From contig MWCA01000021.1 in assembly GCA_002069785.1 (NCBI GenBank), forward strand, positions 1 through 64,000: DNA of 64,000 nucleotides. Direction: 5' to 3'. Made by a program: the position numbers and the translations under genes. Numbering within the stretch: the stretch's first letter is position 1; each line of letters starts with the position of its first letter. The stretch comes from Lentisphaerae bacterium ADurb.Bin242. GTDB lineage: Bacteria > Verrucomicrobiota > Lentisphaeria > Victivallales > UBA1829. Shown here piece after piece: positions 23,545-59,766 of this stretch. The notes below the pieces were generated by a model. That model saw only the letters and a list, made by a program, of their open reading frames with translations, had not been told where the DNA came from and searched no databases.

Positions 23545-24414
23545 TTAATTCAGTCCAGTCATTGCTGCATTTTTGCGATAGACTTCCGGAGTCTTCCCGA
23601 AGTGTTTTTTGAAGGCACGGTAGAAGTATGACGGATCGTTGAATCCGCATTCAAACAGGATGTCCGATATCGAAGAATCCGTTGCAGAAAGCCTCTTTGC
23701 GGCAGTTTCGAGTCTGGAAGTGACACGCGCCTGCGAGATCGTCATGCCGCGAGTCTTGCGATAAATGCCGCAGAGGTGGTTCGGAGTAATCCCGAATATT
23801 TCAGCCAGGCGTGTAGTTGAAGTGTCGCTGCGGGAGTCAGTTTCCATAATGTGGTCTATGTATCCGAGCATTTCCGCCACGCCGTTGCTTTTAAATGCGC
23901 GTTTGGTCTCCCGCAGCATTCTTATGAGCAAGGTCGCCAGTCTGAAACGCAGAAACTCTTTCGAGTTCAAACCCGGCGAATCGTATTCGGCGGCAAGATC
24001 AAGTATGGCGCGTCTGATCGCGGGAGTGCTTTTCTGAACATAAACGGCATTACTGGCGTCCTGATGGAATTCAGGCGAAAAAATAGAGAAAAAGCCGTAG
24101 TCATCCTTGAGCGATGTTAATTCCCTCTCGATGAATCCGAGCCCGAAAAGGATGTTGTAAACCTCCATTTCCCTGACTTCCATGTCAAACGTCGTGATTG
24201 AATCCGGGTGCACGAGAAAAACCGAACCTTCCCCTACGGGATACGCGTGGTCGTTGATAAGCACTCGGCCGCGGCCGCGGATGATATATGTGATTTTCCA
24301 GAACTCCCGTTTGAAACGCGTGGAAGTATTAAATTCGTCGGCAGAATTGACGGTGTGGCGCACGGCGAATTCGAGATCGCTCCGGAAGAAGTTTCTGGCC
24401 CTGTATATTTTCAT
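23545..24414 (-). CDS. AraC family transcriptional regulator, locus A
   Basis: 289 residues. The N-terminal ~140 residues form a cupin-like effector domain (WKITYIIRGRGRVLINDHAYPV, GSVFLVHPDSITTF). Two helix-turn-helix motifs follow: TTRLAEIFGITPNHLCGIYRKTRG and ISDILFECGFNDPSYFYRAFKK, then HFGKTPEVYRK, the AraC signature. It is the first gene of locus A and reads in the same direction as the isomerase and hydrolase genes, so it probably controls them and itself in response to the liberated sugar. Confidence 0.92.
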   Translation of the reverse strand: MKIYRARNFFRSDLEFAVRHTVNSADEFNTSTRFKREFWKITYIIRGRGRVLINDHAYPVGEGSVFLVHPDSITTFDMEVREMEVYNILFGLGFIERELTSLKDDYGFFSIFSPEFHQDASNAVYVQKSTPAIRRAILDLAAEYDSPGLNSKEFLRFRLATLLIRMLRETKRAFKSNGVAEMLGYIDHIMETDSRSDTSTTRLAEIFGITPNHLCGIYRKTRGMTISQARVTSRLETAAKRLSATDSSISDILFECGFNDPSYFYRAFKKHFGKTPEVYRKNAAMTGLN

Positions 24415-24474: not shown

Positions 24475-25368
24475 TTATCGTCTGTTCTGTGCCATATTCA
24501 ATCCTCTTTGGGATGAGGCGCGGTATTCCCGCGGAGAACATCCGAAAAAAGCCTTGAACTGACGGTTGAAGTTTGCGAGATTTCCGAATCCGTGCTCCCA
24601 GGCCAGGGCGGAAACCGGCTCCCGGCTGTTGAGCAGACGCGCCGCAACCGATTTCAGCCGGAATTCCAGGATATATTCGACCGGCAGGACTTTCATGGAA
24701 CGGATGAACTGTCGCCGGAATGTCGAAATACTGCAATGACAGAGTTTTGCCAGTTCTTCGATCCTGACCGGACGCCTGTAATGCCGCGCAATATATCTCA
24801 ACGCCGGATAAATCATATCGACTCCTTCGCAGGAAGCCGTTTCATCCGCGGGCGCCGCGCATCGGCGGTGAAGCAGAACCAGCAGAGTCCAGACAATCCC
24901 GCGCACACTGTCGCGGAACCCCTTTTTCCGATGCTCGAGTTCATCGATCAGCAGAGTCACGAGCCGGTTCAGTTCCGGAGCGTCGGACTGATGAACGAGA
25001 TTCTGAAAGCGATCGCCTGAAAACCGGGAAAGATCGAGCAGACTTTCATCTTCCGGAAGTCCGCCGGCCAGAAGTCTCACGGGATCGAGATTGATGAAGT
25101 CCCACTTCGAGTTCGACGGAGTATCGTGCTGGAGCAGATGGAATTCCCGGTTGTTGATAAAACAGACGTCCCCCGGCGAACAGGTGAATATTTTGTTCCC
25201 GATGAGGAATATGCCGCTGCCGGTCGTGCACAGCCCGATCTCGAAACAGTTGTGGATGTGCGCGTCGTGCGGAGGCTGTTTGTATCCCGGAAACGTGACC
25301 GGAAACGTCGGGTCCAGCGAAATCGGATCGTAGAAACCGATGTTTTTTATTTTTGACGTTTTAAGCAT
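24475..25368 (-). CDS. AraC family transcriptional regulator, locus B
   Basis: 297 residues from the ATG at 25366-25368. A longer frame continues upstream through the divergent dehydrogenase gene but is its antisense shadow; an ATG at 25408-25410 would sit almost at the predicted transcript start. The N-terminal half is a cupin sensor (HDAHIHNCFEIGLCTTGSG, SPGDVCFINNREFHLL); the C-terminal half has VRIEELAKLCHCSISTFRRQF and PVSALAWEHGFGNLANFNRQF, ending FFGCSPREYR. It is divergent from the dehydrogenase/oxidoreductase pair, which it probably regulates. Confidence 0.88.
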   Translation of the reverse strand: MLKTSKIKNIGFYDPISLDPTFPVTFPGYKQPPHDAHIHNCFEIGLCTTGSGIFLIGNKIFTCSPGDVCFINNREFHLLQHDTPSNSKWDFINLDPVRLLAGGLPEDESLLDLSRFSGDRFQNLVHQSDAPELNRLVTLLIDELEHRKKGFRDSVRGIVWTLLVLLHRRCAAPADETASCEGVDMIYPALRYIARHYRRPVRIEELAKLCHCSISTFRRQFIRSMKVLPVEYILEFRLKSVAARLLNSREPVSALAWEHGFGNLANFNRQFKAFFGCSPREYRASSQRGLNMAQNRR

Positions 25369-25414
25369 TGTTTTTGGTGTTTTATACAAAGAAAGAATCT
25401 TAATTTTCATGTAA

Positions 25415-25442
25415 AATATAAGACAGCCACTTGAAAAAGCAA
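25415..25442 (-). promoter_or_regulatory. Promoter of the locus B AraC gene
   Basis: On the minus strand TTGCTT (25437-25442), a 16-base spacer and TATATT (25415-25420). The expected transcript start falls at about 25408, which argues for the downstream ATG at 25368. Confidence 0.45.
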
Positions 25443-25452
25443 AGGAGATTTT

Positions 25453-26508
25453 ATGGAAAACATGAAAAAAAATGCCATTCTGTATTTTCCGAAAGTACGT
25501 GAAGCAGCGTTCAAAAAGACCGAAATCCCAATGCCGGAAGCGGGTGAACTCCTGATCAAAACCAGCCGCACTCTCATCAGCACCGGAACGGAAATGACCG
25601 CTTACTGCGGGGAATTTGAACCGGGGACAACCTGGGAGAAACATTTCTCCTGTCCGTATTATCCGGGGTATAACAATATCGGGACCGTGATCGGGCTGGG
25701 GGAAGGCGTCGAAAATGAATGGCTCGGACAACGCGTGGCCACGAATTGCGTCCATGCGGCGTATGTCATCAAATCCCTTCACAATTCCGGGACCCAGGCA
25801 AAGGGCAAAAGCGAATGTCACCCGGTCCCCGATCCGGTCAGCGATGATGACGCCGTTTTCTTTACGATTCCGCAGATTGTGATGAACGGAATCCGCACCT
25901 CGAAAATCCAGTGGGGGGAATGCGCTGTCGTGTACGGGCTGGGACTTCTCGGCCAGTTTGCCGTCCGTTTCCTGCTGGAAGCCGGAGCCTACCCGGTGAT
26001 CGGAGTGGATCCCTCGGAGCATCGTCTCGAACTTCTCCCGGACAGTCCTCTCGTGGTTCGGGTCAACCCGATGAAGGAGAATGTGGAAGAAATTCTGCTG
26101 CTGGCAAATTCCGGACGCAAAGCGGATGTCGTGATCGAACTGACCGGCAATGCATCCCTGCTTCAGAAAGAGGCGTCGCTGCTGCGGGAAAAAGGACGGC
26201 TGGTCATCCTGAGCAGTCCGAAACATGCGGTGGAGTTCGACTTCCAGGATTTCTGCGCATGGCCGAGCATTTCGATCATCGGCGCTCATAATTTTTCGCA
26301 TCCGGATTATCCGCAGGCGGATAATCCATGGACAGCCAGACGGCATGTGGATATGTTCTTCGACCTAGTGCGTCTCGGTGTGCTGGATATGAAAGGGCTC
26401 GTCAGCCGGAAACTGAACTGGAAAGACGCGCCGGATGCCTACAAAATGCTGGATCGAAACCGGGGCGCTGAAATGGGAATCATCCTCGATTGGAGCGATG
26501 CAGAATGA
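25453..26508 (+). CDS. Medium-chain zinc-type dehydrogenase
   Basis: 351 residues with AAAGGAG seven bases upstream. It has the alcohol dehydrogenase GroES-like N-terminal half (LISTGTEMTAYCGEF, YYPGYNNIGTVIGLGEGV) and a Rossmann half with VYGLGLLGQFAVRFLL (nucleotide-binding GxGxxG) and VIGVDPSEHR. Classical catalytic and structural zinc ligands (GHE and four-cysteine loop) are not obvious, as in the reductase subgroup often paired with Gfo/Idh/MocA enzymes in sugar and cyclitol metabolism. It overlaps the next gene by ATGA, so the two act in one pathway. Confidence 0.82.
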   Translation: MENMKKNAILYFPKVREAAFKKTEIPMPEAGELLIKTSRTLISTGTEMTAYCGEFEPGTTWEKHFSCPYYPGYNNIGTVIGLGEGVENEWLGQRVATNCVHAAYVIKSLHNSGTQAKGKSECHPVPDPVSDDDAVFFTIPQIVMNGIRTSKIQWGECAVVYGLGLLGQFAVRFLLEAGAYPVIGVDPSEHRLELLPDSPLVVRVNPMKENVEEILLLANSGRKADVVIELTGNASLLQKEASLLREKGRLVILSSPKHAVEFDFQDFCAWPSISIIGAHNFSHPDYPQADNPWTARRHVDMFFDLVRLGVLDMKGLVSRKLNWKDAPDAYKMLDRNRGAEMGIILDWSDAE

Positions 26509-40585: not shown

Positions 40586-43507
40586 TCAGTGTTTGCTGGA
40601 ATCCGGCATTTCCTCGGAATCGGCCATGGACAGGTGAACATCGTCGATGTCGAGTTCTCCCTTGATTCGAATGGAAAGCGCAAGCTGGACTTGCTCATCG
40701 CAGCGGACAATTCCCGTGACGGGAAACCACTGATTGGAATCGATTTTTATGGCGATGTCGCCGTAATATTTTGTTTTCGGACCCCGCAAACGGACAAGGA
40801 GTTCGGCTTTGCCGCGTGCCATCATACGGAAGGCATAGATTCCGGTGTTCTTATCCTTTTCCGGTATCCTGATGAACTGGTCTATGAAAGAATATTTTCC
40901 GCCGCTTGAAACGTGCAAGTACACTTTGCCCGAGGCCGGGGTGTCTGTTTTGACAGTCAGGGTGCCGGGATTGGCATTGCTGAATATCCAGTTCGCGACC
41001 GATTTATCATCCATGAAAATCCATGTATTCCTCTTGTTTTTCTCTTTCGGCTGTTCCGGAGCGCAGACAACCTCGAAATCGGGATTTTTGAGAAGCGGCT
41101 CCTGCGTTCCCATCATGACCTGGCGGAAAAGTGTATTTCCATGGAAAATACCGTTGCACCAGGAACTGAACTCCAATTTGCCGTTTTCAAGAAGAGCGGC
41201 GCGGGCGATGTTGATATTCCAGAAGTCGCCGGTGAGTATTTTCGGAGTAAAGTTCTTGACGGGAATCCGGATTTCAGCACACCAGAGGTCCGGGTAGTCC
41301 CTGACAGCAATTTCGGGTTTGGCGTCGGTCTCCTTCCGTGCGGCGGCAGTGGTTCCGGTCGTCTGGTATTTCATGCCTTTCGCATTGACGGCAAGCTGGT
41401 AGTCTTCTCCCTTCATTGCGGGACAAGTTAGAAATATCTCGAAATGGCTGTCCGAAAAAATCTTCTTTGGATCGCCGGAAGTTTCAAGGACCATCTTGCC
41501 GTTTTTCGCCTTTTTTCCTTCAAGGAAGAAATAGAGGTTCTCTTCATCGAAACAGACTCGGGCAATGCTCCCAAGCCGGGCGGCATGCGTTCCGGAAGAA
41601 TCGCATGCTGCGAAATTGTACACTTGTTTTGCATTCTTCCAGTCGGCCTCCCGGTCAAGACCGTCGATCACAATCTTCTCTTTGCGTTTCTGCGCTGCGA
41701 TCCGGTTGTCTTTGTCCTTGAGATAATTCCGGTATTGTGTTTTCCAATTCTTTTCAAAATAACCTTTTTCCCGCTGAATCCGGCTCAGGATCAGAGGACT
41801 TTCCGCCGCCTTTTCAGCGGAAGCAAGCAGGGATTCGAGATGATCGACCAGCCCCGGACGATCCATACAGCTCCCAAGCAGGATAGGCGGGGAGCCGTAA
41901 TACATATGTTCTCTGGAGAGCTCGACGGCTTCACGAAGCGTCCGGCGATAGATTTTCATGTGTTTCCAGGCGGACCCGTAGAATTTCGAATTGATTTCTT
42001 CCGCAACCTTTTCGTAGTCGGCATCGATGTTCCAGGAAAAATATCCGGTCAGCCAGTGAAGCTGCCACAAAGCGGGCCACATGTTTTTTCCGAGATATTT
42101 TCTGCGTTCGATGTAAGTTTTGCCGTCCGGTGCGCGTGTCACCAGCCCGAAGCCTTCCATATGGATCGAATGATAATATTTCAGGTCCCTGACCCAGGCT
42201 TCCTCCATGGGCAGGTAGGAATTGCCCGGCAGATTTGTATGATATTCGAAAGTCGTCGAGCGCACTCCCGCGGCATGCCAGGAATCGAACATTTTCCGGT
42301 ATTTTGCCGAATTCGGGAAACAGGCGGGATCATTGAGCGAATGGATATAGCAGCGCTGGTGCGGACAGACAATCACGGCAACCCGCGGGTCCGGTTTGAT
42401 GTTTTCCGGAACCAGCCGGTAATTCTGATAAACCATCGCATGAAGTTTTAGATTCGGATAGTCTTTCGAAAGCAGGTTTTGCGCCATGAAGTTGACAAAG
42501 TGCCACCAGCGGTTTGAATAGAGTCCATTCTCCTCTGCCGGAGGTTTGCCGTCAAGCGCTTTGCATGGAGCACATTCGCACCAGTTCATGTGATCGTCAT
42601 TACAGAGGATGCGAATGTATTCTTTCCCTTCGTATCTGGAAATGATTTCCTTTGTGCTTTTCAGAATTCTTGCAGGAACCTCCGGATTGCTTGTGCATGG
42701 CTGGCAAAAAATTCTGGAAGAATGTGCCGGGTTGCCGCCCATGATGCGCTGCCCTTTGTAAAGGCCGAAATATTCCGGGTGTTCGGCAAAGAGTTTTTCA
42801 GCCGCGGCCGAACGCTGTTCACTCTTCGGATAATTGCCGGCCAGAAGATCTGTCATCTCGTGTCCGCCCCCGATATAAACGGGAGCCCATTTCGCATATT
42901 TGCCGTCAAGCTGATCGATATAAAGCTGGATGCCGTTGCGGACGATCCAGTCATAGGTATCGGGAGTATACCCGCTTCCGCCGTTCAGAATGAACCTTCG
43001 CTGGGCAAACGCGGGATTGAAAAGCCGGACTCCATCCGCAATTTTGAAATCCGCATTTTGCGGAATATATTCATTTTCTTCTCCCGGCATAAACCAGATG
43101 ACTCCCGCATCTTTCAGGAGCCGATAGGCGCCATAGAGCAGTCCGCGTTGGGAATTACTGATGATCTTGATTCCGGAAACATCGGAGGCGATCACAAAAC
43201 CGTCATCAATGATTTCTGAGGCTTTCTCTTGTATATTCGGAGGAAGCGATTTTGCCGCAGGGGAATTGAAAAGAACAAACTCGACCGTTGTTTTTTCACC
43301 TTGATTTGTCCCGACCGGAAGTGCGGCGCCGGTGATTTTGCCGACATAGGCGGACAACTCCGCGGCAGCATGTTTCTCGACCGCCCCCGCATCGGCGGAA
43401 AGCAGAATGGACGCCTTCGCTTTTCCTCCGGATACGAGTTCCGCGGCGGAAAGAGCCGCACTGAAACTGAACGCCATGATCCCGGTCATGAAACAGTTTA
43501 ACTTCAT
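40586..43507 (-). CDS. Secreted DUF4838-type glycoside hydrolase with C-terminal CBMs
   Basis: 973 residues from the ATG at 43505-43507 (GAGGAG upstream). Signal peptide MKLNCFMTGIMAFSFSAALSAA; then an alpha-glucuronidase/GH20-like N-domain (EKHAAAELSAYVGKITGAALP). The DUF4838 barrel (about 190-560) has ILCNDDHMNWCECAPCKALD and HAMVYQNYRL. Residues ~640-800 are CBM9-like (IVIDGLDREADWKNAKQVYN, DSHFEIFLTC) and the last ~150 form a CBM4/9-like sandwich. Paralogous to the next gene upstream. Probably attacks uronic acid- or hexosamine-containing glycans by analogy, not proof. Confidence 0.8.
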   Translation of the reverse strand: MKLNCFMTGIMAFSFSAALSAAELVSGGKAKASILLSADAGAVEKHAAAELSAYVGKITGAALPVGTNQGEKTTVEFVLFNSPAAKSLPPNIQEKASEIIDDGFVIASDVSGIKIISNSQRGLLYGAYRLLKDAGVIWFMPGEENEYIPQNADFKIADGVRLFNPAFAQRRFILNGGSGYTPDTYDWIVRNGIQLYIDQLDGKYAKWAPVYIGGGHEMTDLLAGNYPKSEQRSAAAEKLFAEHPEYFGLYKGQRIMGGNPAHSSRIFCQPCTSNPEVPARILKSTKEIISRYEGKEYIRILCNDDHMNWCECAPCKALDGKPPAEENGLYSNRWWHFVNFMAQNLLSKDYPNLKLHAMVYQNYRLVPENIKPDPRVAVIVCPHQRCYIHSLNDPACFPNSAKYRKMFDSWHAAGVRSTTFEYHTNLPGNSYLPMEEAWVRDLKYYHSIHMEGFGLVTRAPDGKTYIERRKYLGKNMWPALWQLHWLTGYFSWNIDADYEKVAEEINSKFYGSAWKHMKIYRRTLREAVELSREHMYYGSPPILLGSCMDRPGLVDHLESLLASAEKAAESPLILSRIQREKGYFEKNWKTQYRNYLKDKDNRIAAQKRKEKIVIDGLDREADWKNAKQVYNFAACDSSGTHAARLGSIARVCFDEENLYFFLEGKKAKNGKMVLETSGDPKKIFSDSHFEIFLTCPAMKGEDYQLAVNAKGMKYQTTGTTAAARKETDAKPEIAVRDYPDLWCAEIRIPVKNFTPKILTGDFWNINIARAALLENGKLEFSSWCNGIFHGNTLFRQVMMGTQEPLLKNPDFEVVCAPEQPKEKNKRNTWIFMDDKSVANWIFSNANPGTLTVKTDTPASGKVYLHVSSGGKYSFIDQFIRIPEKDKNTGIYAFRMMARGKAELLVRLRGPKTKYYGDIAIKIDSNQWFPVTGIVRCDEQVQLALSIRIKGELDIDDVHLSMADSEEMPDSSKH

Positions 43508-43551
43508 TTTATCTCCTCTTTTGAAATTCATGTCATCCCTGCCAAATTTCA

Positions 43552-45894
43552 TCAATCGTTCAAATTATTCTGCGGCGGCCTTCCGGGGCCATTGGAAATA
43601 TCGGCTTCGGAAAATTCAAAATTTTTATACTTCAAGCTGTTGTTATAGCCTCCTGAATCCAGTCCGGAACGTTGAAGCCGGTATTTCTCCGCTCCCTCGG
43701 GAGTTAAAATACGGGTTCGGAAAAGGCCGAGTTTTGCCTCCTCACCGGGACAGATCTCACGAATTGCCGACCTTGGAACGGCGAATTCGAGAGTCCAGCA
43801 TTTTCTTTTCGTGTCAATACGTCCTTTTGCGCTGATCCGGCTGTCGATATATTGTATTTTCCGCCCGGGATAATGGCGGATATGAAAGGAATCCCCGGCC
43901 GGATTGAATGCAAAATGAATATATTCTTCGCTTTTGGCCGGGTCGCGCGAAGCGATCATGACCTCAAAATGATCGTCCGCCCAGATATTCGGACTGCCAT
44001 CCTTTTTTTTCGAACCGCATTGGATATACTGCGGTTCATCTTCCTCCGCCGTCACAAAAAAATACATGAAATCTTTATCGAAGGTCAGTTTCACGGAGGA
44101 ATTCTGAAACTTCGAATAGGCTGTCGTATTTGGGAAAAGCTTCAAAGTATAGGCGTCTTTCCAGCACACTTCCCTGTCGAGTCCGTCCATCTCGATTTTT
44201 TCGTGGATTCTCGTCGGACGGATGATCTTCGAACGCCCGAGTTCGGGATCGAACCCCTTCATGATGCGGTTATGTTCTGCCATGACATCCCTGATCTTTT
44301 CCGCCTCGGCGAAAACCCGTTCGAAATCCTTTTTGAGCGGAGCAAGCCAGGAATCATCGGAAACTTTTTTCGAGGCGGCTTCCAGCAGTTTTCGCGGATG
44401 AAGCAAGTTCTCATATTGCAGGGCGCCCTCCAGCGGATTCATCCAGTGTTCATATCCGTAATACAGGTTTTCCATGACCCGGTAATATTCCGTCATTTCG
44501 GCTTCGGCTCCCGGATACGCCAGCGAGCAGAAACGGCGAATTCCGGCTTCCGCATCCATATCCGCATTGAACATCACGCGAGCCTGCATGTAGTTGAGCA
44601 GGGCGCATTGGGCATAAACTACCCGGGAACCGTCACACCAGCGGGTTCCTTCCGCCCGGCCCTGCATCTGTTTGAAGTGCCGGGCCGTTTCCCTCGGATA
44701 AACACAGGGGTAATCCTTCCAGAGAGGAATCCGGGCGTAATACCGGATAAGTGTTTTCACACCGGCGGCTTTCCACTCCTCGAACAGCGGATAGAAATGT
44801 TCATACGCGCGTGCCGCCGGGAACCCGGTCTTGATTTCGATCGCCAGGTTCTTTTCCATGGGTTTCATCCCTTCCGGGACATGCATGTAAAAACCGTATT
44901 TTTCCTGTGTCATGAAATTCATTTCCGGATACTTCTCATGAACTGCGTGCGCAAGACGGTTCATATAGCCATAATACCAATTATCAACGCTTCCCGATTT
45001 ACGACATTCCGGGCATTCGCAAAGACGTACCGGAGTATCGCTGAAAAAACGGATTGTCTTGCAGTTTTTACGTGCGGCAATCATTCCGAGTATGTCATGG
45101 AGCATCGTGTTGAAGACTTCGGGTTTGCTTAAACAGGGCATGTGAAACGGATAATCGGCATTGTAATATCTTCCGTCATAGATGGCGAACATCTCTTTTT
45201 CGCGGTCCTTGAACCGTTTGTTCCAGGAATTCCTGACCGTATAATAAAAGTCGGGCCATGCCCAGCAGGGAACCGAACAGAGCATTTTTTTATAGAAACG
45301 GATCATCTCGGATTCATGGAAGGAACGTGAAGAAGGCGAAAGATAACGGACACGGTAGGAAGGAACCGGAGAATCATATTTTTCCAATCGCAAAAGATTG
45401 TTTTTGCCGAGTTTTTCTCCTTTCGGACCCGGAGCGAAAAATTCTGCCCCCGCATATTTCTGAAGAAAATAATAGACGCCAAGGAGAGTTCCTGTCCGTC
45501 CGCGCATTTGCCAGGGGAGGGCATCGGCATCATCGTAGCCGCAAATCACGATACGGCAGGAGTCATTCAAAATCGCAAATTCTCCTTTGAGGGGCACTGT
45601 TTTTTCGGGGACAGCCGTTACAATGAACTGAATCTTTTCCGGAATCTTCCCATTGAGGCTGATTTCGGCGTCGTAAAGTTTTTCAAGATAGGATTTCAAC
45701 TCGGCGGCGGCAGCTTGCACGACTTCACCGACTCCATCGGGAATCAGGACCTCATAATTGAGGCGGGAAGCAATCCTTTTCAGCGAAGCGCTTTCATCCG
45801 GACGGCCGGAGAAAATGTTGACAGGATTTGCCTCCGCTTGAAATAAAAATCCCAGCAGCAGGCTTGTGTGAAAAATACGAATGAAGCTCTTCAT
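43552..45894 (-). CDS. Secreted DUF4838-type protein with CBM9-like C-terminus
   Basis: 780 residues; signal peptide MKSFIRIFHTSLLLGFLFQAEA. N-domain VVQAAAAELKSYLEKLYDAE, DUF4838 barrel with IRFFSDTPVRLCECPECRKSG and LAIEIKTGFPA, then a CBM9-like end (KIEMDGLDREVCWKDAY, DHFEVMIASRD). The shared GLDRE..WKDA-type and C-x-C-x2-C motifs show it is a tandem paralogue of the next gene, lacking only the terminal CBM. No clear ribosome site precedes the ATG. It follows the locus D pseudopilin after 17 bases. Confidence 0.8.
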   Translation of the reverse strand: MKSFIRIFHTSLLLGFLFQAEANPVNIFSGRPDESASLKRIASRLNYEVLIPDGVGEVVQAAAAELKSYLEKLYDAEISLNGKIPEKIQFIVTAVPEKTVPLKGEFAILNDSCRIVICGYDDADALPWQMRGRTGTLLGVYYFLQKYAGAEFFAPGPKGEKLGKNNLLRLEKYDSPVPSYRVRYLSPSSRSFHESEMIRFYKKMLCSVPCWAWPDFYYTVRNSWNKRFKDREKEMFAIYDGRYYNADYPFHMPCLSKPEVFNTMLHDILGMIAARKNCKTIRFFSDTPVRLCECPECRKSGSVDNWYYGYMNRLAHAVHEKYPEMNFMTQEKYGFYMHVPEGMKPMEKNLAIEIKTGFPAARAYEHFYPLFEEWKAAGVKTLIRYYARIPLWKDYPCVYPRETARHFKQMQGRAEGTRWCDGSRVVYAQCALLNYMQARVMFNADMDAEAGIRRFCSLAYPGAEAEMTEYYRVMENLYYGYEHWMNPLEGALQYENLLHPRKLLEAASKKVSDDSWLAPLKKDFERVFAEAEKIRDVMAEHNRIMKGFDPELGRSKIIRPTRIHEKIEMDGLDREVCWKDAYTLKLFPNTTAYSKFQNSSVKLTFDKDFMYFFVTAEEDEPQYIQCGSKKKDGSPNIWADDHFEVMIASRDPAKSEEYIHFAFNPAGDSFHIRHYPGRKIQYIDSRISAKGRIDTKRKCWTLEFAVPRSAIREICPGEEAKLGLFRTRILTPEGAEKYRLQRSGLDSGGYNNSLKYKNFEFSEADISNGPGRPPQNNLND

Positions 45895-45911: not shown

Positions 45912-46649
45912 TTATTCAAAACAGAGCAGAACCGATCCGGTCGTGCCAAAATAATTTCCGGGGCTGCCTGAGGCGGGATATCCGGTAGTGAAACTGTTGT
46001 TGCTCCCTTTCCAGCAATCATTGTGACGAACCGTTTTGGCAGACATGTCAAGAAAAAACATCGGTGTGCCGCCGGTATGGATCTGGTTGTAGTCGGTGGA
46101 CGCATAATTCTTGGCACATTTCACCCAGTAGACGCGGTTCGGAAGTTTGACGGTGCCGGCTTTGAAATATCCTCTGTTTTTGTCAATGACCCATTGATAT
46201 CCGGCGCTGATTCTTACGCCCGGATCGTTGCACAATCCGGTATTGATTGCATAAAACGCCTGGTCCACAGGTGTATTGTATTTCAGAGCCGCTGCCGCAC
46301 AGTTCAGCTTCTTTTTGCGGTCTGCGTGGTTTTTCCAGGCAACGACAGCCGAGCATGTTTTTTCATCCTCCTGATACAATTTCGGCCAGGTTTCGATATC
46401 CGTGCCGTCCTTGGAACCGCCTGAACGCGAAAATTTGAAGTAGCCAAGCCCCCAGTCATTATATGTCTCGAGATACATGGATTTGAAAAGCGAAAGCTGA
46501 TGAAGGTTATTGAGGCAGCTTATCGTATGGGCCATTGCCCTTGCCTTGCTTAACGCAGGCAGCAGCAGCCCGGCCAAAATGGCAATGATGGAAATCACTA
46601 TGAGCAATTCTATCAAAGTAAACCGCACAGTATTTTTGTTTTTTTTCAT
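45912..46649 (-). CDS. Type II secretion-like pseudopilin (variant H-X9-D), locus D
   Basis: 245 residues. Leader MKKNKNTVR precedes F10[17 protein letters not shown]; Arg is at -1. The helix continues [17 protein letters not shown]. Near the C-terminus [12 protein letters not shown] keeps H-X9-D but has Met in place of the Gly. First gene of locus D, divergent from the AraC regulator across 118 bases. Confidence 0.88.
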
Positions 46650-46722
46650 CTGAGCAAACCCTTTCTTTGGATATGTTGATAATTTTTCCGGATGTGATAT
46701 ATTATTTCCCGAAAATGAAAAA

Positions 46723-46740
46723 ACAATCCTGTTTGATTGT
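46723..46740. promoter_or_regulatory. Inverted repeat in the locus D divergent promoter
   Basis: ACAATC (46723-46728) and GATTGT (46735-46740) flank CTGTTT, in an AT-rich region midway between the two divergent genes. Possible AraC-type operator. Confidence 0.35.
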
Positions 46741-46767
46741 AAAAAAAAGACAAATTAATGTATCTAT

Positions 46768-47907
46768 ATGAAACAACCTCCCAGTAATCCATATACGAGA
46801 GAAATCACCGACAGCGGCAATGTCCATGATGAATTCTGGATTGACAACGGATACTTCACGGCGCTTCTCCATGAACACGCGATCCAGCTTCACCATTTCG
46901 GGATTTTCAGGAACATGGGGCCCTTTCAATTCGAAGCATCCTCAAGGGGAGACGATCTCACCATCCATTTTATCGCGGAAGGCTCCATGATCCTGAAGGG
47001 AGAAAATACGTACACCCTCGGCAAAGGGGATGTCGCCGTCACCACGCTGGAAGATCATTACCGCTTCCTTGACAACAACGGAAAACAAGCGGTCCGCTGG
47101 TATTTCTGTATTTATCCGACTCTCGGCGCTTCGCTTTTCCGCAGCAGCGGGATTCTTGCCGACAGAACGGTTTTTCATCCGTCCGCTCCGCAGAAACTGG
47201 CTGTCCTTCTCCGGTCTCTTCATTCCATGCTTCTGAATCAATCCGTTGAGGTCATGACGCAGATTTCTGCCGTGCTCTATCATTTTCTGGTAGAATTGAA
47301 TAAACAATACAAACATGTCGACAATATTTCCTCCTGGGAAGTAATGGTCTCTTTTCTGAGGCGTCCGCCATTCAATTATACGGTGGCGGACCTTGCAAAA
47401 AAATATGGAGTCTCCGTTCGTACTTTCGACAGGCGGTTCAAATCGAAATTCGGAAAATCCCCCAGGGAATATCTTGCCGAACGCAGACTTTCACATGCAT
47501 CCTATCTGCTGATCCAGGGCTCCTGCGCGATTTCCGAAGTCGCTTCAATCTGCGGATACACCGACACCTCGCATTTTGTTCATGATTTCAAGCAAAGAGT
47601 TGGAGTACCACCGAATAAATACCGCAAAATGAAAATGCGGCTGACATCCGTTTTCCGGCATAAAATCATTTTTGATATGTCTGGTTCGATTTCAGAAGAA
47701 AAAAGTGGTTCAAAACATCTTTCGGAACGACGAAAGCAAATTCTCTATCTCATCCATCAGAACAGCCACATAACACAAAGAAAACTTGCAAATTCTCTCG
47801 GGATCAATGTTTCTGCCGTCGAAGCCCATCTGCTGTTTCTGAAACGGGAAAAACTGATTGCCCGTATAGGACCGCCCCATGGCGGGCATTGGGAAGTCAT
47901 TTCATAG
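46768..47907 (+). CDS. AraC family regulator with an added C-terminal winged helix, locus D
   Basis: 379 residues. Residues ~1-190: cupin-type sensor (DLTIHFIAEGSMILKGENTY). Residues ~200-295: AraC domain with YTVADLAKKYGVSVRTFDRRF and AISEVASICGYTDTSHFVHDF, ending VGVPPNKYRK. Unusually, residues ~315-379 add a second DNA-binding-like unit, SERRKQILYLIHQNSHITQ, KLANSLGINVSAVEAHLLFL and a GGHWEVI end, resembling winged helices at the C-terminus of RecG-like/AlbA-type ATP-binding proteins. No ribosome site is evident before the ATG. Confidence 0.88.
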   Translation: MKQPPSNPYTREITDSGNVHDEFWIDNGYFTALLHEHAIQLHHFGIFRNMGPFQFEASSRGDDLTIHFIAEGSMILKGENTYTLGKGDVAVTTLEDHYRFLDNNGKQAVRWYFCIYPTLGASLFRSSGILADRTVFHPSAPQKLAVLLRSLHSMLLNQSVEVMTQISAVLYHFLVELNKQYKHVDNISSWEVMVSFLRRPPFNYTVADLAKKYGVSVRTFDRRFKSKFGKSPREYLAERRLSHASYLLIQGSCAISEVASICGYTDTSHFVHDFKQRVGVPPNKYRKMKMRLTSVFRHKIIFDMSGSISEEKSGSKHLSERRKQILYLIHQNSHITQRKLANSLGINVSAVEAHLLFLKREKLIARIGPPHGGHWEVIS

Positions 47908-58833: not shown

Positions 58834-59766
58834 ATGACAAAGTTTCTTTCCAGCACGAACCAGAATTCCGTTCCTGTGGACCCGGACAGCCTGTCGAGCC
58901 ACATCATCAGCCGTTCCATGCCGTTCCGGATAGGTTCTTTTCTTCTTCAACTCAAGCGGTTTCATACGCGATTCCGCATTTCAGACAGCCTCATGGAACA
59001 CGAGCATCCTTTCTTCGAGCTGGTGTTTACCGACCGGGGCTACATCCGCTACACGGTGGACGGCAGAACCGTCAACCCCGATTATGACCGGCGGCGGATC
59101 TTTCTGGCCCCGCCGGGACTTGCCCATCGCCGGATCGTGCTGACTTCCGACAGCTGTCTGACGTTACTTCAGTTCAGCCTTGTGCCTGAGAACGAAGAAG
59201 GTACTGTTTCCCTGGAGCGTTTGAAAAGGGAAATCATGGAAAAATCCTGTTCGCTGCCCATGACTTCGTATTTGAAATCTCTTGCGGACAGCTGGTATGA
59301 AATGACCGAACAGCGACCGCCGCTTTGGACGGAACGGACGGAAAACCGGTTGAAGGAATTCCTCCTTGCGATTTTCGCGGAAAACTTTGCCGGACTATTC
59401 AGCCGGAATTCTTTGAAAAAGCGTCTTTACATCCATGGCGTCCGGCAGGAACAGATCGTTCAGGCCATTGAAGCCGCGCTTGACACGAATTTGGATATGG
59501 CGGGATATTCCAGCCTGATCGGGCTTTCAGGGCGTCACATTTCCCGTTTGCTCAAACAGAGCACCGGGATGTCGATGAACCGCTATGTCCGATCCCGCCG
59601 CATCCGGCTTGCGCGGGAAATGCTTGAAACGCAGAATATGAGCGTAAAGGATGTCGCCGCCGCGCTTGGATTTCAAGATGTCAGTTATTTCTGCAAAGTA
59701 TTCCGGGAATCGATTGGAATTACCCCGGGCAAGCTGGCATCCTTCTCTAAAAAACGGGATCCATAA
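58834..59766 (+). CDS. AraC family transcriptional regulator, locus E
   Basis: 310 residues with AGGA five bases before the ATG. Cupin sensor in the first ~150 residues (MEHEHPFFELVFTDRGYIRY, IFLAPPGLAHRRIVL). C-terminal AraC domain: LDMAGYSSLIGLSGRHISRLL and MSVKDVAAALGFQDVSYFCKV, ending SIGITPGKLASF. It faces the pseudopilin-led operon of locus E across 133 bases and probably activates it on sensing a released sugar. The stretch 59767-59929 beyond it holds no gene that I can support. Confidence 0.92.
   Translation: MTKFLSSTNQNSVPVDPDSLSSHIISRSMPFRIGSFLLQLKRFHTRFRISDSLMEHEHPFFELVFTDRGYIRYTVDGRTVNPDYDRRRIFLAPPGLAHRRIVLTSDSCLTLLQFSLVPENEEGTVSLERLKREIMEKSCSLPMTSYLKSLADSWYEMTEQRPPLWTERTENRLKEFLLAIFAENFAGLFSRNSLKKRLYIHGVRQEQIVQAIEAALDTNLDMAGYSSLIGLSGRHISRLLKQSTGMSMNRYVRSRRIRLAREMLETQNMSVKDVAAALGFQDVSYFCKVFRESIGITPGKLASFSKKRDP

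Follow-up and report, generated by a model that had tools for sequence, protein, structure and literature searches.

An AraC-type regulator with a predicted C-terminal winged helix in Lentisphaerae bacterium ADurb.Bin242 and its relatives

In regulators of the AraC/XylS type, the AraC domain is typically, though not strictly, C-terminal. Lrp/AsnC, MarR, and ArsR proteins are winged-helix regulators that stand alone and have different sensor or dimer parts. Published counts are 106 different companion domains for AraC/XylS (PMC5882156) and more than 60 different partner domains for HTH_24 (PMC7017128), and fic-HTH domain fusions have also been published (PMC2686095). Because both families are known with many partner domains, a protein that joins AraC to HTH_24 is a variant and not a new kind of regulator. 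No description of an AraC-winged-helix fusion was found in the portions of the matching publications that our literature search covered.

The DNA analysed, here termed the window, is a stretch of 64,000 nucleotides from Lentisphaerae bacterium ADurb.Bin242 (GCA_002069785.1; contig MWCA01000021.1, positions 1 to 64,000, forward strand). A sequence-only reading had pointed to one of its genes as encoding an AraC regulator with a cupin sensor and an extra winged-helix domain. The parts of this gene are:

46768..47907, + strand: cupin-AraC-winged-helix regulator (open frame and Pfam)
46858..47088, + strand: probable cupin-like sensor core, residues 31-107 (sub-threshold Cupin_6 match; profile of six related N-termini)
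47374..47631, + strand: AraC double helix-turn-helix, about residues 203-288 (Pfam HTH_18 and HTH_AraC; solved AraC-family domains)
47632..47718, + strand: linker of about 30 residues joining the AraC domain to the winged helix, about residues 289-317 (between the two Pfam domains)
47719..47904, + strand: C-terminal winged helix, residues 318-379 (HTH_24 and fold model)
47863..47901, + strand: wing with the R-x-G-P-x-x-GG-x-W signature, residues 366-378 (row alignment)

The gene runs from ATG to stop as a single uninterrupted open frame of 379 amino acids. Its AraC domain is recognized by Pfam HTH_18 at residues 209-287 (E 3.3e-24, 85.4 bits against a cut-off of 33.6) and by HTH_AraC (E 2.7e-17), the latter in two stretches that correspond to the two helix-turn-helix motifs. 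In a phmmer search of the PDB with the whole protein, all 20 matches at E 0.01 fall on this domain. The domain ends near residue 288 of 379 and is followed by the winged helix, so that it is not C-terminal. The proposal of a complete AraC double helix-turn-helix with a second DNA-binding-type unit behind it is thus borne out by HTH_18 and then HTH_24, both above their cut-offs. SLFN_AlbA_2, HATPase_c_4, and Fic/DOC are absent from the 24 Pfam families listed for the protein up to E 1. The window contains three more frames of the AraC type (23545-24414, 24475-26346, and 58834-59766), and the 5.97-Mb genome as a whole (G000) has 138 AraC-type matches, apparently a very large repertoire of such regulators.

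For the N-terminal part, the evidence is weaker than for the other domains. Cupin_6 matches below the Pfam cut-off, with E 0.0011 for the whole protein and 0.00032 for the N-terminal part alone. Six N-terminal rows, four from fused and two from unfused proteins, were combined into a profile. Its matches include solved cupins (best E 6.2e-6) and BgaR, a sensor of the AraC family (E 0.0026), and five of the six rows match AraC_binding at E<=0.01 (best 5.6e-7). The proposed cupin sensor therefore stands in part: the six-row profile indicates that the N-terminal part is probably cupin-like, and the window protein taken by itself stays below the Cupin_6 cut-off.

The C-terminal tail is recognized by HTH_24 (PF13412) at residues 318-364 with E 1.7e-9 (37.5 bits against a cut-off of 21.9), and HTH_11 and HTH_5 also exceed their cut-offs in the whole protein. 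When the last 95 residues are scanned alone, HTH_24 is found at E 8.4e-9, and HTH_11 and HTH_5 fall just under their cut-offs. An AlphaFold model of the tail was built from an alignment of the window and eight other rows, seven of them viral-contig relatives and one a Bacteroidales protein. It predicts helices at residues 320-331, 337-344, and 348-360 and a two-stranded wing at 364-367/374-377 (protein numbering), with a mean pLDDT of 81.8 and ten-residue blocks of 93-96 in the helices and 87-93 in the wing. The R, G, P, GG, and W of the wing signature are invariant in all nine aligned rows. Among solved structures, a Foldseek search places this model closest to winged helices mostly of the MarR/ArsR type (ZitR, MepR, and CadC), including DNA complexes of ZitR and MepR; the best E is 1.2e-3, and no match lies at or under 0.001. 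By sequence, the Lrp/AsnC-type protein PH1519 is a distant PDB match (E 1.4e-5). A full-length model, from a thin alignment of five rows, has a mean pLDDT of 56.4 and does not form the wing; its blocks reach 77-92 in the AraC domain and 83-90 in the tail helices, and the linker (residues 290-315) and most of the N-terminal part are below 50. With HTH_24 above its cut-off and a helix-helix-helix-strand-strand model, a winged-helix fold is predicted for the tail, as had been proposed, and the contrary outcome of no such fold did not come about.

The same architecture recurs in related genomes. When the relatives were searched with the stretch from the AraC domain through the tail, its domain order was found again in five frames from four genomes: G002:C8 and G001:C255 in the same genus, G016:C26 and G016:C187 in the same family, and G129:C70 in the same order. 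Pfam confirms AraC and HTH_24 in G002, both G016 frames, and G129. The G001 tail misses HTH_24 at E 0.001 and is recognized by its alignment to G016:C187, with which it is 59% identical in the tail and 81% in the AraC domain. An assembly or frameshift artefact joining two genes, which the sequence-only reading had named as a possible undoing of the fusion, might be entertained given that the genome assembly is fragmented (303 contigs, completeness 91.48, contamination 5.08). Such a reading is extremely improbable and can be considered already refuted, because the domain order recurs in related genomes (six frames in five genomes, four of them other than that of the window); the window gene is also a single open frame.

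The fusion is rare, as had been suspected. A profile search of the order (137 genomes, E 1e-12, scoring up to 31 candidates in each) yielded at least 24 rows: six fused, one half-AraC, two tail-less AraC (L108 and L116), and 15 others or fragments. Full fused frames in the order thus number at least six, in five of the 137 genomes. The half-AraC row (L111, G129:C107) is a 125-amino-acid frame with the second AraC helix-turn-helix only and a winged helix, and the rest of the AraC domain was not seen upstream of it in the three frames examined. Among the rows examined from 387 genomes of the phylum, with at most 11 candidates scored per genome and with G002, G129, and row G279:C219 set apart, no further AraC carrier was found. 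A genome-contig search with the whole window protein found a single relative, a Bacteroidales SLFN_AlbA_2 protein. The window tail alone confirmed no relative in a viral-contig scan, and scanning with eight aligned winged helices yielded 10 loci. None of 154 phage records has a place covering 80% of the query; among 2567 plasmid records, the sole one that does is from Embleya (24.5% identity), and it was rejected as a fusion since its AraC-type frame stops before the tail region.

The history of the fusion was followed on two trees. On an AraC-domain tree of 56 rows, the six fused rows need three changes, a number as low as which was reached in none of 500 label shuffles. G001, G002, and both G016 rows form one group (91/80), which the window row joins weakly (23/17) alongside four unfused rows, and G129 is placed elsewhere. 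A single fused clade is not rejected, with AU p 0.431 for the five rows without G129 and 0.296 for all six. The winged-helix tree comprises 52 rows and 61 columns, three short or odd frames (L070, L073, and L088) having been left out of 55; the wing-less G001 tail never entered it, as the profile did not reach it. Here, the tails of the window, G002, and both G016 frames lie in a seven-row group (82/87) with three non-AraC rows, the two G129 tails lie apart, and one AraC clade has AU p 0.072 on these 61 columns only. Judged from both trees, the fusion probably arose once or twice.

The regulator gene lies beside a divergent set of genes, the features of which are:

46650..46767, no strand assigned: divergent intergenic region of 118 bp (consensus scan)
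46676-46703/46705, + strand: sigma-70-like promoter match (consensus scan, weak evidence)
45912..46649, - strand: pseudopilin-like protein with the N-terminal motif of prepilins, divergent neighbour (TIGR02532 IV_pilin_GFxxxE, 20.4 bits, cut-off 16.3)
43552..45894, - strand: DUF4838 protein behind the pseudopilin gene (Pfam DUF4838, E 1e-12)
40586..43555, - strand: second DUF4838 protein, with a GH67 N-terminal domain (DUF4838 E 3.6e-32, Glyco_hydro_67N E 2.3e-6)

Pfam N_methyl falls just below its cut-off in the pseudopilin-like neighbour. On the other side of the regulator gene lie genes for a protein that matches GH20b below threshold and for an alpha-L-rhamnosidase. Five pseudopilin-type N-terminal motifs occur on the - strand of the 64 kb (46622, 54424, 21816, 35534, and 58649), all as pattern matches and the last less typical. 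Promoter-like matches number four in 1.4 kb against a shuffle mean of 1.7 (sd 1.5). A 32-bp imperfect palindrome over the promoter-like site was considered as an operator and rejected, as 123 of 500 random sequences with the same dinucleotides do equally well; no operator was found in the divergent region by this comparison. The suggestion from the sequence-only reading that the tail could bridge two sites or recruit another factor stays speculative and draws nothing from this palindrome. The half-site pattern of the palindrome has eight places in the genome against one for the reversed control, from which no inference is drawn.

Much of this setting is repeated around the other fused genes. 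A divergent pseudopilin gene adjoins the fused gene in the window, G001, G016:C187, and G129 and is one gene away in G002. The G129 locus repeats the divergent arrangement of AraC, pseudopilin, and DUF4838 with one extra frame between the last two, so that DUF4838 stands on the pseudopilin side there and in the window; in G001, a CBM_4_9 protein lies behind the pseudopilin. Around G016:C26, no pseudopilin motif occurs in 13 kb, and a GH20 gene is found downstream. The pseudopilin context does not explain the tail, because 15 of 47 unfused AraC loci also have the motif nearby (within the fetched flank, in any orientation). With the setting this common among unfused loci, its presence near five of the six fused genes is no strong contrast.

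Taken together, we consider the odds slightly better than even that the protein acts as a local activator responding to a ligand, with its tail providing a third contact to DNA. The cupin-like part would sense a small molecule, probably a sugar, and the regulator would control the divergent pseudopilin and DUF4838 genes and possibly the alpha-L-rhamnosidase region downstream. Established knowledge of AraC and cupin proteins and the gene context suggest such sugar-responsive activation of the adjacent genes. The AraC double helix-turn-helix would be the main operator contact, facing RNA polymerase, and the winged helix on its flexible linker of about 30 residues would add a DNA contact beside the AraC site. 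This extra contact may raise affinity or fix the seating of the dimer at the promoter. Going by its modelled fold, the tail most likely contributes a DNA contact in this way, since the structures closest to it are winged helices that bind DNA and the wing is kept in four of the six fused proteins. The absence of the wing from the other two tails and the negative outcome of the operator search count against this.

The two remaining frames bear on what else the tail may do. The wing with its R-x-G...G-x-W residues is kept in the window, G002, G016:C26, and G129, and the fused frames of G001:C255 (L056) and G016:C187 (L055) stop just before it, retaining the helical part. A frame break concealing the wing in this pair was rejected, as the motif was not found after the stop in the other two reading frames. 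With two of six frames ending ahead of it, the wing is not a requirement for every fused protein. Comparison of this one pair gives dN/dS of 0.40 for the tail (49 codons), 0.90 for the linker (29 codons with a small synonymous count), 0.25 for the N-terminal part, and 0.11 for the AraC domain, which suggests that the wing-less tail evolves under some constraint.

Winged helices can bind proteins, and a helical part that persists and stays somewhat constrained where the wing is missing would suit a protein-protein module that dimerizes the regulator or docks a partner without contacting DNA. We regard this as rather unlikely: the wing is conserved in the majority of the fused frames, and no partner with the same winged helix is evident, the window copy being the only match in its own genome (E<=1; profile E<=1e-9). 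Still less probable is that the tail is a nearly neutral remnant of a fusion between an AraC gene and the end part of a winged-helix gene, the added residues being tolerated. The rarity of the architecture, the loss of the wing in two frames, and the occurrence of unfused AraC genes in similar settings are in keeping with a remnant. Against it, the three other winged tails are 30-45% identical to that of the window, with helix core and wing signature intact, despite AraC domains that differ widely among the fused proteins, and the tail dN/dS is below that of the linker. Were the tail of the favoured local activator to bind DNA, the protein would be an AraC regulator that reads DNA through three units drawn from two helix-turn-helix families, and a natural example of operator extension through domain addition. 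The contribution of the tail should be measurable, since tailed, tail-less, and wing-less-tail relatives occur in one bacterial family.

The winged helix has other carriers. A census of the class with a winged-helix profile (197 genomes, E<=1e-9) gave 88 matches in 57 genomes; 86 loci cover all of them, and 88 frames were classified, as L072 has two matches within a single frame and a weaker frame comes in from L087. L072 (G047:C43) is a contig-edge frame with two tandem winged-helix copies. An AlbA/HATPase part shares the frame in 47 of the 88, and four more frames lie just downstream of one (51 together). Fic is the companion in eight and full AraC in four (window, G002, G016:C26, and G129:C70), and in the other 25, including the G129 half-AraC, the winged helix stands alone or the frame is cut off at a contig end; the two wing-less AraC frames are outside this census. 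Frames were labelled AlbA/HATPase or Fic by means of small profiles built in-house; Pfam confirmed SLFN_AlbA_2 and HATPase_c_4 in L066, L067, L117, and L133, and it confirmed Fic in L069 and L125. From this census, the tail had been correctly likened to the winged helices on RecG-like/AlbA ATP-binding proteins, and AraC ranks third, as a minor carrier. One winged-helix module is therefore common to AraC, Fic, and AlbA/RecG-like proteins, and that of the window protein may have been acquired from, or co-derived with, the C-terminal winged helix of the SLFN_AlbA_2/HATPase_c_4 and Fic proteins. A further reading, which we hold to be improbable, takes the winged helix for an addressing module that can pass between proteins and by which AlbA-type, Fic, and AraC carriers recognize the same type of DNA site or the same partner. 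If so, the AraC members would couple sugar-responsive promoters to an AlbA-type/Fic network.

A separate observation concerns the sequence before the winged helix. An in-frame array with a 12-bp period (24 or more positions at 85% identity) immediately precedes it in 41 of the 82 frames with enough upstream sequence (40 loci), a count that includes close relatives such as L202 and L203. In the same 82 frames, control periods of 9, 10, 13, 14, 15, and 18 bp give none, 11 gives one, and 21 gives six. The repeat encodes a tetrapeptide that varies by protein (TVEK, TTQK, SSGK, NLPV, QLGN, and others), and its carriers are mostly SLFN_AlbA_2/HATPase_c_4 and Fic proteins (L150, L098, L163, L209, and 36 other loci); it is absent from all four full AraC carriers. 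One possibility is that it serves as a variable-length linker, and it is possibly more striking than the AraC fusion.

Compared with known systems, the window protein has in common with AraC/XylS regulators that carry an AraC_binding cupin sensor the double helix-turn-helix and, probably, a cupin-like N-terminal part. It differs in what follows the AraC match, about 91 residues against at most 28 in 50 unfused AraC rows. The Lrp/AsnC, MarR, and ArsR winged helices resemble its tail, as a distant sequence match (PH1519) or as the nearest folds. Fic proteins with a C-terminal winged helix carry the same module as the tail, and the Fic domain is absent from the window protein. By sequence, the closest winged helices are those of SLFN_AlbA_2/HATPase_c_4 ('RecG C-terminal-like') proteins, with identity reaching 48% across 61 columns (L133) and a common wing of the form R-I/V-G-P-x-K/H-GG-H-W-E. 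Unlike those proteins, the window protein has neither the SLFN_AlbA_2 and HATPase_c_4 domains nor the 12-bp repeat before its winged helix.
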